Shown here: in pieces, positions 7,897 through 12,184 of the stretch
Layout of the letters: the number at the start of each line of letters is the position of its first letter
Numbering within the stretch: position 1 is the first letter of the stretch
Origin: Malaciobacter molluscorum LMG 25693
Lineage (GTDB): Bacteria; Campylobacterota; Campylobacteria; Campylobacterales; Arcobacteraceae
NCBI RefSeq assembly: GCF_003544935.1
Contig: NZ_CP032098.1
Location: 1,550,001-1,614,000 of the forward strand
Reading direction: 5' to 3'
DNA: 64,000 nucleotides
Program-made: the position numbers and the translations under genes
The notes under the pieces: generated by a model
Told to the model about the DNA's origin: nothing
The model's input: only the letters and a program-made list of their open reading frames with translations
Databases searched by the model: none

Positions 7897-7924
7897 AGAT
7901 AAAAGAGTATTTTCTTTTATCTTT
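7895..7924. terminator. bidirectional terminator after cbiH
   Basis: A perfect 11-bp inverted repeat, AAAGATAAAAG (7895-7905) and CTTTTATCTTT (7914-7924), with an 8-nt loop. It overlaps the cbiH stop and the last base pairs of the convergent gene at 7923. T-rich on one strand and A-rich on the other, so it can serve both transcripts. Confidence 0.8.
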
Positions 7925-8633
7925 ATATATGACAACTCAAAATTGACATTGTTGGGTCATATAAATATCTATATCCTCTATAAGCTACATAAATACCAAA
8001 AGCTATAACAACTAATGAAGCTATTTTTATCATCACATTTCTAAGAGAAGTTTGTTTAAAAATAGAGATAAAAAATCCTAAAGAAAACATCGCAGGAAGT
8101 GTACTTAATCCAAACAGAAGCATAACAAACCCACCCCAAAGTGCATTACCTGTACTTGCAGCAGTTATTGCAAAAACATATACAAAACCACAAGGTAAAA
8201 GACCATTTAACATCCCTAAAAGATAAAAACTTGTCAAAGAGTTTGAGCTTATTAAAGATCTAAATGTTTTTTGATAGATTGGTGATTTTGATACGGAGTG
8301 CTCTAAATTTGTTAGAAATTTTATTTTACCACTTAAAGATAACCCAACTAATATCATAAGTGTTCCAGTAACTAAAAGTAAAATACCACTTGTAGTTTTA
8401 TCAAAAGTAACTACACCACCTACATATCCAAATATAAATCCCAAGATTACATAAGTTGTAATTCTTCCAAAAGAGTATAAAACATGAGATAATGCTTGTA
8501 GCTGTTTGCTCCATCCACTTTTTACTTTTGTGCTTGAATATGCTACAACAATTCCTCCACACATTCCAATACAATGCCCAAAAGAGCCTAAAAAAGCTAT
8601 TGTAATAATAGATACTATACTTACTGTTTCCAT
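7923..8633 (-). CDS. COG2836-type (TauE/SafE-related) six-TM membrane protein
   Basis: 236 residues with about six membrane segments. The N-terminal motif GHCIGMCGGIVVAYS is the hallmark of the COG2836 family, often found with cytochrome oxidase maturation or copper genes; a second conserved motif is LLPCGFVYVF. The paired cysteines inside membrane helices suggest metal or thiol handling rather than sulfite export. It follows the NosL gene by one base and is the last gene of the leftward operon that starts near 12184. Copper-related function is inferred from family context and the NosL neighbour. Confidence 0.75.
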   Translation of the reverse strand: METVSIVSIITIAFLGSFGHCIGMCGGIVVAYSSTKVKSGWSKQLQALSHVLYSFGRITTYVILGFIFGYVGGVVTFDKTTSGILLLVTGTLMILVGLSLSGKIKFLTNLEHSVSKSPIYQKTFRSLISSNSLTSFYLLGMLNGLLPCGFVYVFAITAASTGNALWGGFVMLLFGLSTLPAMFSLGFFISIFKQTSLRNVMIKIASLVVIAFGIYVAYRGYRYLYDPTMSILSCHI

Positions 8634-8634
8634 A

Positions 8635-9141
8635 CTATTTATTACCTAAAAGTTTTTGTTTTATATATGGATTAGTTAAGTTTTCACCTCTAATCATATG
8701 CAATATCACTTGATTGAAATCTATAAATCCATCTTGTTTCTTTTCATATGCACCAAAACCATAATGCATAGGAGTATTGGCAACTCTTGTGTACCAAGCT
8801 TTTCTACCATCTATATATTTTTTTGTATCAGTTGCATATACCCAAATAACAGCTTCATTTTTAAACTTAATATGCTCATACCATTTTGACATACAGCCCA
8901 TATCATCAAAAAACCATGTTCGTCCATCAGGCGCTACAACTTGAACAGAGTTAATTTTAGACTCTATTGTCATTCCACATTGACTATCTTGAAAGTGATG
9001 TAATTCTATATCAATTGGTTTTTTATCATAATTCCCAGTATGAATAACAACCATCTTTTTTTGTTCACTCATTGAAATAAATATTACAATTACAATTGCA
9101 ATGATAATAAATATACTCAAAAGGGGTATTAATTTTTTCAT
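8635..9141 (-). CDS. nosL: NosL-family copper-binding protein, membrane anchored
   Basis: NosL proteins are periplasmic Cu(I) carriers, best known for copper delivery to nitrous oxide reductase. This one has the family motifs DSQCGMTI, WFFDDMGCMSKWYEH and ANTPMHYGFGAYE; Cys and adjacent Met-His residues are the reported copper ligands. The likely start is the ATG at 9141, overlapping the previous stop as TAATG, not the upstream in-frame start at 9192; this gives 168 residues. The N-terminus is a plain hydrophobic anchor with no lipobox Cys, unlike typical lipoprotein NosL. No nosZ lies in the window, so the copper client is unknown. Confidence 0.85.
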   Translation of the reverse strand: MKKLIPLLSIFIIIAIVIVIFISMSEQKKMVVIHTGNYDKKPIDIELHHFQDSQCGMTIESKINSVQVVAPDGRTWFFDDMGCMSKWYEHIKFKNEAVIWVYATDTKKYIDGRKAWYTRVANTPMHYGFGAYEKKQDGFIDFNQVILHMIRGENLTNPYIKQKLLGNK

Positions 9142-10106
9142 TATAAGAAAACTCCATTTTTTAAATAATATATAAATACATATAAAGTACAAATTGATAC
9201 AAAAATAGTATTAAAAATTATTGAGTATTTATATGTATAATCTAACTCTTTTTTTATAAGAGATTTTAGCATAAAGGAACTTATTGCATAAAAAACTCCT
9301 AAAAAAAGAGTCGTCCACAACACATAACCTATATAATAATACTCTTTTTGAAGCATACAAAAAGGACATTTATGTGTAGGCAACTCATAAATATAAGTTC
9401 CAAAAAACTCAACAACACTTAAATAAGAAATATATAAAAATAGTATATTTACAATAAATGATAAAAAAGATTGTTTTGAAATATTTGCCATTAAAGTTAA
9501 TAAATAAAATAAATAAAAAAGAATAATAAGTTTACTCGTATCTAAACCAAAAGGTAGTGTACTATTACCTTGTGTACCAAAAATAACTGTACAACAAAGC
9601 ACTAATTCATCCAAAGATATATTTGTAAAATATAATATATCTAAAATATATTCAATTAACGTTATTAAAAATACAAATATAAAAAAGTATAATTTTGTTT
9701 TTATATATGGATAATCCTTTTGTCTTAAATCTTCACTATTTATTATTATCCAAATAGAATTAAAAAATACTATAAATATTTTAAGAGCTAAAAGTTTTAT
9801 TCCATAATCATTTGCATTTATAACTCCTGCTGCACACATTGCTCCAGGAACTATATTTGATAAGTTATCAATAACATATGCAAAATAAGGAATTAAAGCA
9901 ATTTTCACAACTAATGCAAAAAAGATTATAAGCATAACTAAATATGATTTTTTTTCTAACCTATACTGTTTTGGTTTTGTTGAAGTAAAATCCCAATTTT
10001 TAATTATATCAATTGTAAAAAATAGTGCAAAAAACTCTAACAATATAATCAAAGTTTCACTTAATAGATATATTAAAACTTCAGTTGAAAGCAAAACTTC
10101 ATTCAT
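9141..10106 (-). CDS. polytopic membrane protein with HxCxxCM motif, function unknown
   Basis: 321 residues with about eight predicted membrane helices (roughly 8-34, 55-79, 103-123, 138-160, 191-208, 213-236, 257-284, 294-315). I do not recognise a named family. Possible ligand residues sit at membrane boundaries: Cys91 in PGAMCAAGV, the pair Cys171-Cys172, and HKCPFCMLQ (His245, Cys247, Cys250, Met251). The last resembles a thiol-redox or Cu(I) site. It overlaps the ABC ATPase upstream by one base and nosL downstream by one base, so all three are translationally coupled and probably act together. A copper or disulfide role is inference. Confidence 0.6.
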   Translation of the reverse strand: MNEVLLSTEVLIYLLSETLIILLEFFALFFTIDIIKNWDFTSTKPKQYRLEKKSYLVMLIIFFALVVKIALIPYFAYVIDNLSNIVPGAMCAAGVINANDYGIKLLALKIFIVFFNSIWIIINSEDLRQKDYPYIKTKLYFFIFVFLITLIEYILDILYFTNISLDELVLCCTVIFGTQGNSTLPFGLDTSKLIILFYLFYLLTLMANISKQSFLSFIVNILFLYISYLSVVEFFGTYIYELPTHKCPFCMLQKEYYYIGYVLWTTLFLGVFYAISSFMLKSLIKKELDYTYKYSIIFNTIFVSICTLYVFIYYLKNGVFL

Positions 10107-10774
10107 TATAAAATCTGTCCATTTTCCATGTATATTATTTTTGTTATTAGATTACTTTGCTCAAAAATAGAATCATGAGTAGCAATAATTACAGTTTTTG
10201 ATAACTTTTTAAAAATTTGTAATATTTTTAAAAATTTTAAACTATTTTGTTTATCCAGATTTGCAGTTGGTTCATCAAAAAGTAAAATATCAGCATCACA
10301 TACTAAAGCTCTTGCTATTGCAACTCTTTGTTTTTCTCCACCACTTAAATTAGATACTAATTCATCTTTTTTATGTTTTATGTTTGCAATATCTAAAACA
10401 TTTAAAATTTTTTCATCTAATTGTTTATTATTTAAATTTTGGGGAATTAAAGAAATCATGATATTTTGATAAACATTTAAAGAATTTATCAAATTAAAAT
10501 CTTGAAAAACATATCCTATTTTTTTATTTCGGAAATTTGAAGCATGTAAATCAGGCAACTTCGCAACATGTTCTTTATCTACTATAATATCACCACTTGT
10601 AGGCTTTTGTAAACTTGAAATAATAGATAAAAGTGTAGATTTTCCACTTCCACTTACACCTTTTAATAAAACTATTTCCTCTTTGTTAATTAAGAAATTA
10701 ATATTATTTAGAGCAATAAACTCATTTTTTTTATGTTGGTTATATATTTTATAAAGGTTTTTTACTTCTATCAT
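10106..10774 (-). CDS. LolD/MacB-type ABC transporter ATPase
   Basis: 222 residues, a single nucleotide-binding domain. Walker A is GVSGSGKSTLLS, the Q-loop is VFQDFNL, the signature is NLSGGEKQRVAIARAL, Walker B is ILLFDEPTANLD, and the switch His is in IATHDS. It is of the LolD/MacB subfamily, which works with FtsX-like permeases in moving lipoproteins or peptides or in periplasmic mechanotransmission rather than classic import. The start overlaps the permease stop by 4 nt (ATGA). Confidence 0.9.
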   Translation of the reverse strand: MIEVKNLYKIYNQHKKNEFIALNNINFLINKEEIVLLKGVSGSGKSTLLSIISSLQKPTSGDIIVDKEHVAKLPDLHASNFRNKKIGYVFQDFNLINSLNVYQNIMISLIPQNLNNKQLDEKILNVLDIANIKHKKDELVSNLSGGEKQRVAIARALVCDADILLFDEPTANLDKQNSLKFLKILQIFKKLSKTVIIATHDSIFEQSNLITKIIYMENGQIL

Positions 10775-11949
10775 TTTATACTCTTTATTACATCAACAGT
10801 TGCTATTTTCCAAACAGGAACTAAAATTACACATAAAAATGGAATTACAAAAAAAATAAATATTGTAATAATTGAACCTAAAGATACATATGGGGTAAAT
10901 TCATATGATATATCTAAATTTGAATATCCTAAAAATATATTTATTAAAAATGGTGCTTTTACTAAAAATACATAAATAAAAGCAAAAATAATTCCAAAAC
11001 TAAAAGAAAAAAATGCAACTAAAAAGTTTTCTAATACTTTCAATTTTAAAATATCTTTTATACTCCATCCAACTGCTTTTAATATAGCAATTTCTTTTTT
11101 ATCACTTGAATTTATCATCGAATATCTTTGATAAAGTATTAATAAAAAAGTAAGAATTACTACAATATACAAAATTAAAAATAATCCACCTTTATAGTTA
11201 AATAGATTTAAAAAATGCGATTTCACATCTTTTTTAGATAAAACTCTTAAGTTATCATCTAATAATATTAATTGCACTTTTATATTTTCTTTTTCTAACT
11301 CATTTGGCACATTTAAAGCAATATCTGTTGCTTTAAACTCCCCAATACCTAGAATAATCTTTGCTAACTCTTTTGGCATAATTATCATATCATTTGATAA
11401 AAGAGAAGTTTTTGCATCTAAACTATCATAAATCTCTACTTCTACTGATTCGCCCAATGCTGTTGTAAAAAAATAGCTATTGTCATATTTGTATTTATCA
11501 AAAAGTTTTTTTACTCCATTACCTATAATCATATACTCTTTTTGTAAAAACTTCTTCATATCAAGATTTTTGATTAAAACAGATAGATTTTTATTATTTT
11601 GTTCTTCAAAAAAATCCACACCAACAATAGTAAAACTTTGTTTTAAAGCTTTAAAATAGTATTTTCCATAAACTCTTGTAGTTACTTTATTTACTCCAAG
11701 AATAGATTCTATTTTATCTACTAAATTGGTATTAATATCTATAACTTGCCCTGCTTTCATTTTTTGAACAATAAAATCAGGTTGAGAATCAATTGAATTT
11801 AAAACATCTTTAGAAATAGAATTAGAAATAAAATTCACACTTGCAAGAATAAATACTAATATTGTTGAGATTATAAAAATTGAGATGTGTTTACTTTTAT
11901 GTGTAAAAAGAAGTAAAAATAAAAAATTATAAAAAGACTTATTGAACAT
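10771..11949 (-). CDS. FtsX/MacB-type ABC transporter permease
   Basis: 392 residues with the MacB layout: one N-terminal membrane helix (about 22-45), a large periplasmic domain (about 46-260), then three C-terminal helices (about 263-285, 312-338, 355-385). The cytoplasmic coupling segment KKEIAILKAVGWSIKDILKLK is characteristic. Pairs with the ATPase at 10106. With NosL downstream, the pair may move or energise a copper-handling step; that is inference. It overlaps the small membrane protein upstream by 11 nt. Confidence 0.85.
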   Translation of the reverse strand: MFNKSFYNFLFLLLFTHKSKHISIFIISTILVFILASVNFISNSISKDVLNSIDSQPDFIVQKMKAGQVIDINTNLVDKIESILGVNKVTTRVYGKYYFKALKQSFTIVGVDFFEEQNNKNLSVLIKNLDMKKFLQKEYMIIGNGVKKLFDKYKYDNSYFFTTALGESVEVEIYDSLDAKTSLLSNDMIIMPKELAKIILGIGEFKATDIALNVPNELEKENIKVQLILLDDNLRVLSKKDVKSHFLNLFNYKGGLFLILYIVVILTFLLILYQRYSMINSSDKKEIAILKAVGWSIKDILKLKVLENFLVAFFSFSFGIIFAFIYVFLVKAPFLINIFLGYSNLDISYEFTPYVSLGSIITIFIFFVIPFLCVILVPVWKIATVDVIKSIK

Positions 11950-12184
11950 ATATAAAATCCCTATGTGTTGTCTGTTTATTAAATAAATAAGCTCTATTTT
12001 GTATTTGATTACTATCTTCTTGATAACTATTTGAAAAGTAAATATTTAAATTCTTTGTTAAATTTGTTATGGCATTTAGTTGATTTTGTTTTGATTGATT
12101 ATTGTAATTATATGAGTAATAAAAAATAAAAGAAAACCCTAAGAATATAGTAAAAAATATAATAAAAAAAACTTTATAAATCAT
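11939..12184 (-). CDS. small single-TM membrane protein, function unknown
   Basis: 81 residues: one N-terminal hydrophobic segment (about 3-25) followed by a polar, Asn/Gln-rich periplasmic tail. No family recognised. It is the first gene of the nosL/ABC operon and overlaps the permease by 11 nt, which supports it as a real gene. It could be a small accessory subunit of the transporter. Confidence 0.55.
   Translation of the reverse strand: MIYKVFFIIFFTIFLGFSFIFYYSYNYNNQSKQNQLNAITNLTKNLNIYFSNSYQEDSNQIQNRAYLFNKQTTHRDFIYVQ

Follow-up and report, generated by a model that had tools for sequence, protein, structure and literature searches.

Why would a NosL-like protein and an ATP-binding cassette (ABC) transporter be encoded together in a genome without nitrous oxide (N2O) reductase? 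This question is raised by six minus-strand genes at positions 7923-12184 of a 64,000-nt stretch of the Malaciobacter molluscorum LMG 25693 genome (here called the window; G000:C1:1550001-1614000 of a 2.80-Mb single-contig genome, where G codes denote genomes and L codes loci). They encode a small transmembrane (TM) protein, an FtsX-type permease, a LolD-like ATPase, an eight-TM Cys protein of 321 aa, a NosL-like protein, and a SafE/DsbD_2-type membrane protein; the first four are referred to as the core, and the homologs of the fourth as the 321 family. A first-pass annotation had proposed a copper delivery or thiol-redox machine for a client that it left unnamed. Copper delivery fits as the type of function, and for the client there is now a testable candidate in cbb3 oxidase, because co-variation, synteny and co-occurrence point to this enzyme. 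We propose, with a confidence just short of even, that the six genes are an orphan copy of a NosL-ABC copper-handover module serving cbb3 oxidase; copper as cargo, the direction of transfer, the role of ATP, and cbb3 as client are what we infer.

An orphan copy of a recurrent module

The 321 family, with its core, is present in 161 of 397 Campylobacterota genomes and in 34 of the 68 sampled genera, and it belongs to no Pfam family; the homolog search proposed in the first-pass annotation thus reveals a widespread group, in which the closest named relative of the window protein is from Malaciobacter halophilus (83%). Gene order was counted for 79 of the 80 named relatives, leaving out one whose gene is split. 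The 321 gene has LolD as its immediate upstream neighbor in 70 of 74 testable named loci, FtsX occupies its expected upstream place in 66 of 69, and NosL follows downstream in 62 of 77. This order is far beyond chance, so that a lack of conserved gene order, which would have spoken against the first-pass annotation, is not seen in the named loci.

Copy positions are known for 150 listed copies. Of these, 25 are found no more than 25 kb from nosZ and away from mccA, and nosZ shares a stretch with the 321 family in L029, L040, L056, L140, and L199-L202. A further 77 form an orphan class without nosZ or mccA within the set distances on the same contig, a count that is inflated by contig breaks and includes at least one copy (G153) that really belongs to an mcc-type cluster. 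The window copy is one of the orphans: NosZ (TIGR04246) has no match in the whole source genome and mccA is 419 kb away, which places it outside any nos or mcc cluster. A tree of 79 rows unites the mcc copies in a single group (98/95) and puts the window copy among its genus-mates, one of which has an orphan copy at the same cobJ/HAD site. The neighbors recurring beside orphan copies are housekeeping genes, and no client gene is seen there. Two copies (L130 and L133) come from metagenome-assembled genomes labeled Krumholzibacteria, which show Campylobacterota gene order and are probably binning errors.

The source genome also carries a second 321-family copy (50% identity), inside an mcc sulfite-reductase cluster with the order mccA (octaheme, CX15CH)-B-C-D-ccsBA-Sel1-Sel1-double NosL-small-FtsX-LolD-317-NosL. 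Nearly the same order, mccABCD-ccsBA-Sel1-double NosL-small-FtsX-LolD-317-NosL, is found in a Wolinella-like genome of 2.11 Mb (L183), whose nosZ is split in two. Kern et al. are said to have named the eight accessory genes of the Wolinella-type cluster mccE-L in 2011, and the 317-aa protein would presumably be MccK. The complete respiratory sulfite-reductase cluster (L046:1991-4102; L026, G000:C1:1966528-1980102) is adjoined by an apparent two-component system. MccA matches occur in 96 of the 397 genomes and split by score into 55 close matches (>=985 bits) and 41 second-tier matches (<=662 bits). All 55 genomes with close MccA have the 321 family, and at least 48 of them have a listed copy 9.4-13.3 kb from mccA; among the other close-MccA genomes, six lack a position among the matches listed and one has mccA at a contig end. 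MccA can be rejected as the client of the window copy, as it has its own linked copy and one genome with an orphan module (G051) has neither an MccA nor a NosZ match. G051 is the counterpart of the named Malaciobacter halophilus locus L073, where the orphan module is likewise present.

Several further mcc-related loci were observed. The second-tier proteins of L185-L192 are MccA-like octaheme proteins with 44-48% in local alignments, and CX15CH is missing in the 8 examined. In L187 and L191 a protein of ~690 aa, with rhodanese and multiheme matches in L187, adjoins the MccA-like gene, and no module is present. L289 (G153:C1:867001-875000) contains an mcc-type run of ccsBA, Sel1, double NosL, FtsX, LolD, 317, and NosL, although MccA has no match at E<=1e-80 anywhere in that genome. 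The source genome encodes, at about 0.818 Mb of C1 (L027:9612-10727), a detached NosL protein of 371 aa with two domains; this type of protein may be the module's missing first gene, because a relative of it stands just upstream of the module FtsX in 45 of 59 testable named loci.

NosZ is likewise rejected as the client, there being none in the genome and no association with the core inside Arcobacteraceae. Across the 397 genomes NosZ is present in 127, of which 102 have the 321 family (Fisher, 5e-29). At L184 (G260:C1:868001-887000), in a Wolinella-like genome, the two pieces of a split nosZ are separated by about 1.3 kb.

The putative identity of the window NosL-like protein rests on its family. 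The protein itself has no Pfam match at E<=1 and is missed by a genome search with PF05573; we nevertheless regard it as a NosL, because 17 of the 26 family members aligned reach E<=1 against PF05573 (best, 1.6e-6; the window protein not being among the 17) and the CxM motif (C55, M57) is invariant in all 26. It has, as previously noted, an N-terminal TM segment without Cys in place of a lipobox; by eye, lipobox-like Cys are found in two relatives (L137 and L151). PMC6530538 presents NosL as a Cu(I) chaperone for CuZ and CxM as its proposed Cu(I) site.

In 101 Arcobacteraceae genomes, anchored NosL (profile A3, >=194 bits) is tightly associated with the core: 68 genomes have both, 4 the core only, 1 NosL only, and 28 neither (P=1e-19), whereas the corresponding counts for the core and NosZ are 33, 39, 9, and 20 (P=0.19). 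Co-occurrence with NosL, also suggested in the first-pass annotation, hence holds for 68 of the 72 core genomes, even where the two are unlinked. In several genera the core and NosL occupy different sites yet are co-retained; in two Aliarcobacter-like genomes (G010 and G087), NosL-SafE adjoins the same HAD gene and the core is beside dksA/truD-like genes (names assigned by eye). Three of the core-only genomes (G030, G064, and G099) suggest assembly gaps, since SafE is undetected in them too, and the fourth (G040) has its core solely in an mcc cluster. Core and anchored NosL are present with neither NosZ nor MccA in 33 of the 101 genomes.

SafE, its Cys-His tail, and cbb3 oxidase

The last gene of the unit had been labeled COG2836-type, which we take to be another name for SafE/DsbD_2-type proteins, and its product matches PF13386 (DsbD_2) with 168.1 bits (cut-off, 24.9). 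SafE was found in 191 of 200 Campylobacterota, mostly as a single copy, and in 96 of 101 Arcobacteraceae. When 44 chosen genomes were searched for CcoN, it was present in 35/35 with SafE and in 1/9 without. Among 20 chosen SafE loci outside Arcobacteraceae, 9 are near ccoN, either directly adjacent or with a two-component pair in between, 4 are beside NosL, and 7 are near neither. As an indirect test on genomes of our own choosing, SafE thus shows both co-occurrence and synteny with ccoNOP, the exception being G273, which has CcoN without SafE.

SafE proteins encoded 300-900 nt downstream of a 321 gene in the named loci all end in a C-[HC] tail (31 of 31). We read the tails of 62 SafE proteins from 61 Arcobacteraceae genomes. 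The tail Cys is present in all 35 NosL-positive genomes read (of 69 NosL-positive) and in none of the 26 NosL-negative genomes with SafE; in a 27th such genome (G031) the gene is broken and the tail Cys is also missing. G009 has one tailed and a second, tailless SafE, and the second SafE of G020 is tailed and lies beside NosL. Tailed and tailless states both occur inside five genera (g1, g6, g11, g12, and g19), the Cys being replaced by Ala in G040 and by Ser in both G039 and G031. Three genomes of family f8, picked for a full-length SafE match (G112, G150, and G154), carry ccoN some 2.4-2.8 kb from a CH-tailed SafE, with an orphan module at another site; G128, which shares its genus with G112, is without both the module and the tail Cys. 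A tight coupling of NosL and tail is shown for Arcobacteraceae alone, with a hint of it in f8.

Across the 191 genomes, the 321 family is found in 23/28 with a full-length SafE match versus 40/163 without one. Genomes with only nos- or mcc-linked copies mostly have no full-length match (23 of 25), and such a match is present in 16 of 25 genomes with an unlinked copy and in 5 of 13 without a copy position among those listed. In five loci from three families, genes for TonB-dependent receptors (Pfam) adjoin tailed SafE, which is a hint of metal or metallophore uptake.

Mechanism and competing explanations

All 52 distinct relatives of the 321-aa protein that were compared keep M90-C91, C171-C172, H245-x-C247-P248-x-C250, and Q253 unchanged, in agreement with the GAMC, CC, and HxCPFC motifs picked out beforehand. 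An AlphaFold2 model built from 75 sequences (pLDDT 90.3, pTM 0.87) likewise bears out the eight TM segments and places the Cys loops TM2-3, 4-5, and 6-7, together with both termini, on one face. This face may be periplasmic, a weak hint taken from the loops of the model, because Lys and Arg number 6 on the opposite face and 2 on the Cys face. Pfam gives zero matches for the protein itself and only scattered weak ones for the 75 relatives. A fold search with the whole model and with its C-terminal half returns nothing at E<=0.001, and a structural second look finds generic helical bundles only (Z <=12.8 and 10.3, respectively); the fold listings contain no DsbB, VKOR, or other thiol-oxidase row, although the protein may still have such a fold. 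Searching PDB sequences with profiles of the 321 family and of NosL brought nothing useful. An internal duplication is rejected, the halves lacking profile similarity (probability, 0.3%).

In the copper-handover reading, anchored NosL would hold Cu(I) at CxM in the periplasm, and the eight-TM protein, with a cluster of five Cys plus Met/His on the periplasmic side, would take up Cu(I) or keep thiols in the right redox state. The transfer would be driven by ATP-powered periplasmic movement of the FtsX/LolD transporter with the small protein. In the Arcobacteraceae orphan class the partner would be SafE. Its Cys-His tail, placed in the periplasm by our reading of the loops, may trade Cu(I) or electrons with NosL, and SafE itself would serve to assemble the CuB center of cbb3 oxidase. 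The simplest chain in Arcobacteraceae would thus run from the core through NosL and the SafE tail to cbb3 assembly, because SafE goes with cbb3, its tail with NosL, and NosL with the core; only synteny and co-occurrence connect SafE to cbb3. Since NosL is an established Cu(I) chaperone (PMC6530538), the cargo is probably copper and its destination probably CuB of CcoN. More reservedly, we consider it possible that one ATP-driven NosL-FtsX/LolD-8TM platform is an exchangeable copper insertase shared by three enzymes unrelated to each other, namely N2O reductase, heme-copper sulfite reductase, and cbb3. The partner chaperone would set its specificity, and the cbb3 partner in Arcobacteraceae would be a DsbD_2/SafE protein that gains or loses a Cys-His tail for docking along with NosL.

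A number of observations weigh against this reading. All tests of co-occurrence ignore kinship (no ancestry correction). Outside Arcobacteraceae, no full-length SafE match is present in 9 of the 25 genomes that carry an unlinked copy, one of the 9 being G153 with its mcc-type cluster. Five Sulfurospirillum-type genomes of family f10 (G205, G218, G239, G258, and G275) have the core and NosL but a tailless SafE, G267 has the core with a tailless SafE and no adjacent single NosL, and the SafE tail of G270 and G288 is Cys-rich but longer and of another kind. Given these exceptions, a phylum-wide pairing of SafE tail and NosL was dropped. A Cys tail on SafE is also not unique to the module, because G157 and G212 have cco-linked SafE with other Cys-rich tails and no 321 family. 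G006 and G238 carry NosL and tailed SafE without a core match. Many cbb3-bearing genomes lack the module, including 6 of 10 other Arcobacteraceae searched for CcoN (G014, G027, G038, G049, G053, and G061), and for this reason it is at most an optional route to cbb3. In the second tier of MccA genomes, only 7 of 41 have the 321 family, with none within 20 kb of mccA among the listed copies. All 8 of these MccA-like proteins that were examined keep two Cys at positions that we take to be equivalent to the Cu ligands. SafE itself may be a CcdA-like electron carrier. SafE proteins with other Cys-rich C-terminal tails (e.g., HHCH or repeated CG/KC) were observed in L229, L230, L300, and L304, the first two beside ccoN.

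The orphan module might load some other, unrecognized copper enzyme, or a periplasmic copper store of a general kind, its link with SafE reflecting shared copper handling only. This fits the housekeeping neighbors of the orphan copies, the 33 Arcobacteraceae without NosZ and MccA, and the f10 genomes that pair the module with a tailless SafE; we nonetheless consider it unlikely, as SafE presence tracks CcoN and SafE is near ccoN in several families. A thiol-redox machine is another alternative. Here SafE would send electrons outward like CcdA/DsbD, the eight-TM protein would relay them via CPFC and CC, and NosL would take the reductant, keeping cytochrome c or copper-site thiols reduced. SafE being a PF13386 protein and the invariance of the five Cys are in line with it, and so is the CPFCMLQ (CPFC..Q) motif, which resembles the CxxC motifs of DsbB/VKOR. 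DsbB homology is unsupported, however, by an hhalign comparison of the 321 family with one DsbB-like protein, which aligned 14 motif columns at a probability of 0.2%. The absence of SafE also tracks that of CcoN (8 of 9 genomes), and CxM of NosL is the proposed Cu(I) site in PMC6530538; we therefore regard this machine as improbable. Least credible by far is that the module remains from a nos or mcc cluster since lost and is retained by drift. The same module does sit inside nos and mcc clusters, but here the reading frames are intact, the invariant residues are kept, separated parts are co-retained, and the window copy groups with its genus-mates, one with the same cobJ/HAD site.

The copper-handover reading would matter in several respects. 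cbb3 is the main oxygen-respiring enzyme of microaerophiles, and the copper route to its CuB center is only partly known. If the reading is true, a widespread unnamed membrane family ties cbb3 copper loading to the maturation of N2O reductase and sulfite reductase, and hypothetical genes inside climate-relevant nos clusters gain a role. The SafE tail offers a one-residue test, with natural Cys-to-Ala and Cys-to-Ser variants existing in genomes without anchored NosL.

The six genes and their known counterparts

All six open reading frames (ORFs) first described are intact on the minus strand, in the order small-FtsX-LolD-321-NosL-SafE, with a divergent HAD hydrolase upstream and a convergent cobJ-like tetrapyrrole methylase downstream (Table 1). 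The overlaps of 1-11 nt then reported stand for four junctions, namely 11 nt for small/FtsX, 4 nt for FtsX/LolD, 1 nt for LolD/321, and 1 nt for 321/NosL if NosL begins at ATG 9141 (the ORF list proposes an upstream TTG at 9192); NosL and SafE are instead separated by a 1-nt gap. The reported absence of nosZ holds genome-wide, and that of NosD and NosFY for the eight genes scanned with Pfam (7.1-13.0 kb), the rest of the window being unscanned.

Table 1. Features of the six-gene unit (window positions) and of the loci with TonB-dependent receptor genes
Feature	Coordinates	Strand	Remarks
Small single-TM protein, 81 aa, first gene	11939..12184	-	C-terminal F-[VI]-Y motif common to mcc-cluster counterparts
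FtsX/MacB-type ABC permease, 392 aa	10771..11949	-	PF02687, E 3e-11
LolD/FtsE-type ABC ATPase, 222 aa	10106..10774	-	PF00005, E 4e-36
8-TM protein, 321 aa, five invariant Cys spread over three loops of the same face	9141..10106	-	No Pfam family
NosL-like protein, N-terminal TM anchor, putative CxM copper motif	8635..9141	-	ATG start at 9141; TTG at 9192 alternative
SafE/DsbD_2-type membrane protein, six TM by eye, C-terminal ILSCHI tail	7923..8633	-	PF13386, E 2.9e-49
TonB-dependent receptor genes beside tailed SafE	L242:4052-6136, L243:11163-13256, L203:10008-11951, L204:10558-12375, L083:10317-11915		Pfam

Among the window proteins searched, the small protein, the 321-aa protein, and NosL have no significant Pfam family of their own. 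Counterparts of the small protein have 61-62 aa in mcc clusters (62 aa in L183), and an ORF with the F-[VI]-Y motif was detected in 34 of 59 testable named loci. Lol-type lipoprotein export is rejected, as the permease scores 29.7 bits against the LolCE equivalog (cut-off, 362.45) and the ATPase 176.4 bits against the LolD equivalog (cut-off, 307.75); the ATPase is also under the FtsE equivalog cut-off. A defense system is rejected as well, PADLOC matching the ATPase alone with generic AAA/ABC models.

The first-pass annotation had presented the unit as a candidate new system. This is partly so: the orphan class and the evidence towards cbb3 as client are new, and the module as such is already part of mcc and some nos clusters. 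Among the titles and abstract openings listed, with subscription papers outside the scope, we did not find the module as a unit or a link of NosL/SafE to cbb3 in Campylobacterota.

Compared with known systems, the proposed client, the CuB center of CcoN, is shared with the CcoGHIS/Sco/PCuAC assembly of Campylobacter jejuni, for which PMC8267372 gives CcoGIS, PCuAC, and Sco as copper factors; that paper contains none of the terms NosL, DsbD, and Cj1493. In Sulfurospirillum cavolei, PMC4794192 describes nos clusters with a five-gene insertion (a permease, an ATPase, and three hypotheticals) between nosL and nosY. Judging from gene order this is probably the same module, with an ABC permease, an ATPase, and hypothetical proteins beside NosL. 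The window copy differs from Campylobacterota nos clusters in that its genome has no NosZ and that the core does not follow NosZ in Arcobacteraceae. It shares with the NosDFY-NosL machine of N2O reductase the combination of an ABC transporter and a NosL copper chaperone, but its permease is of the FtsX type (Pfam) and no NosD is among the eight genes scanned; to our knowledge, NosDFY has no counterpart of the eight-TM Cys protein. The Wolinella-type mcc cluster has the same run of small TM protein, FtsX, LolD-like ATPase, eight-TM Cys protein, and NosL, and the source genome has both versions. The window copy, however, is without adjacent mccA, mccBCD, ccsBA, Sel1, and double NosL, and it has SafE instead and falls outside the single mcc group of the tree.

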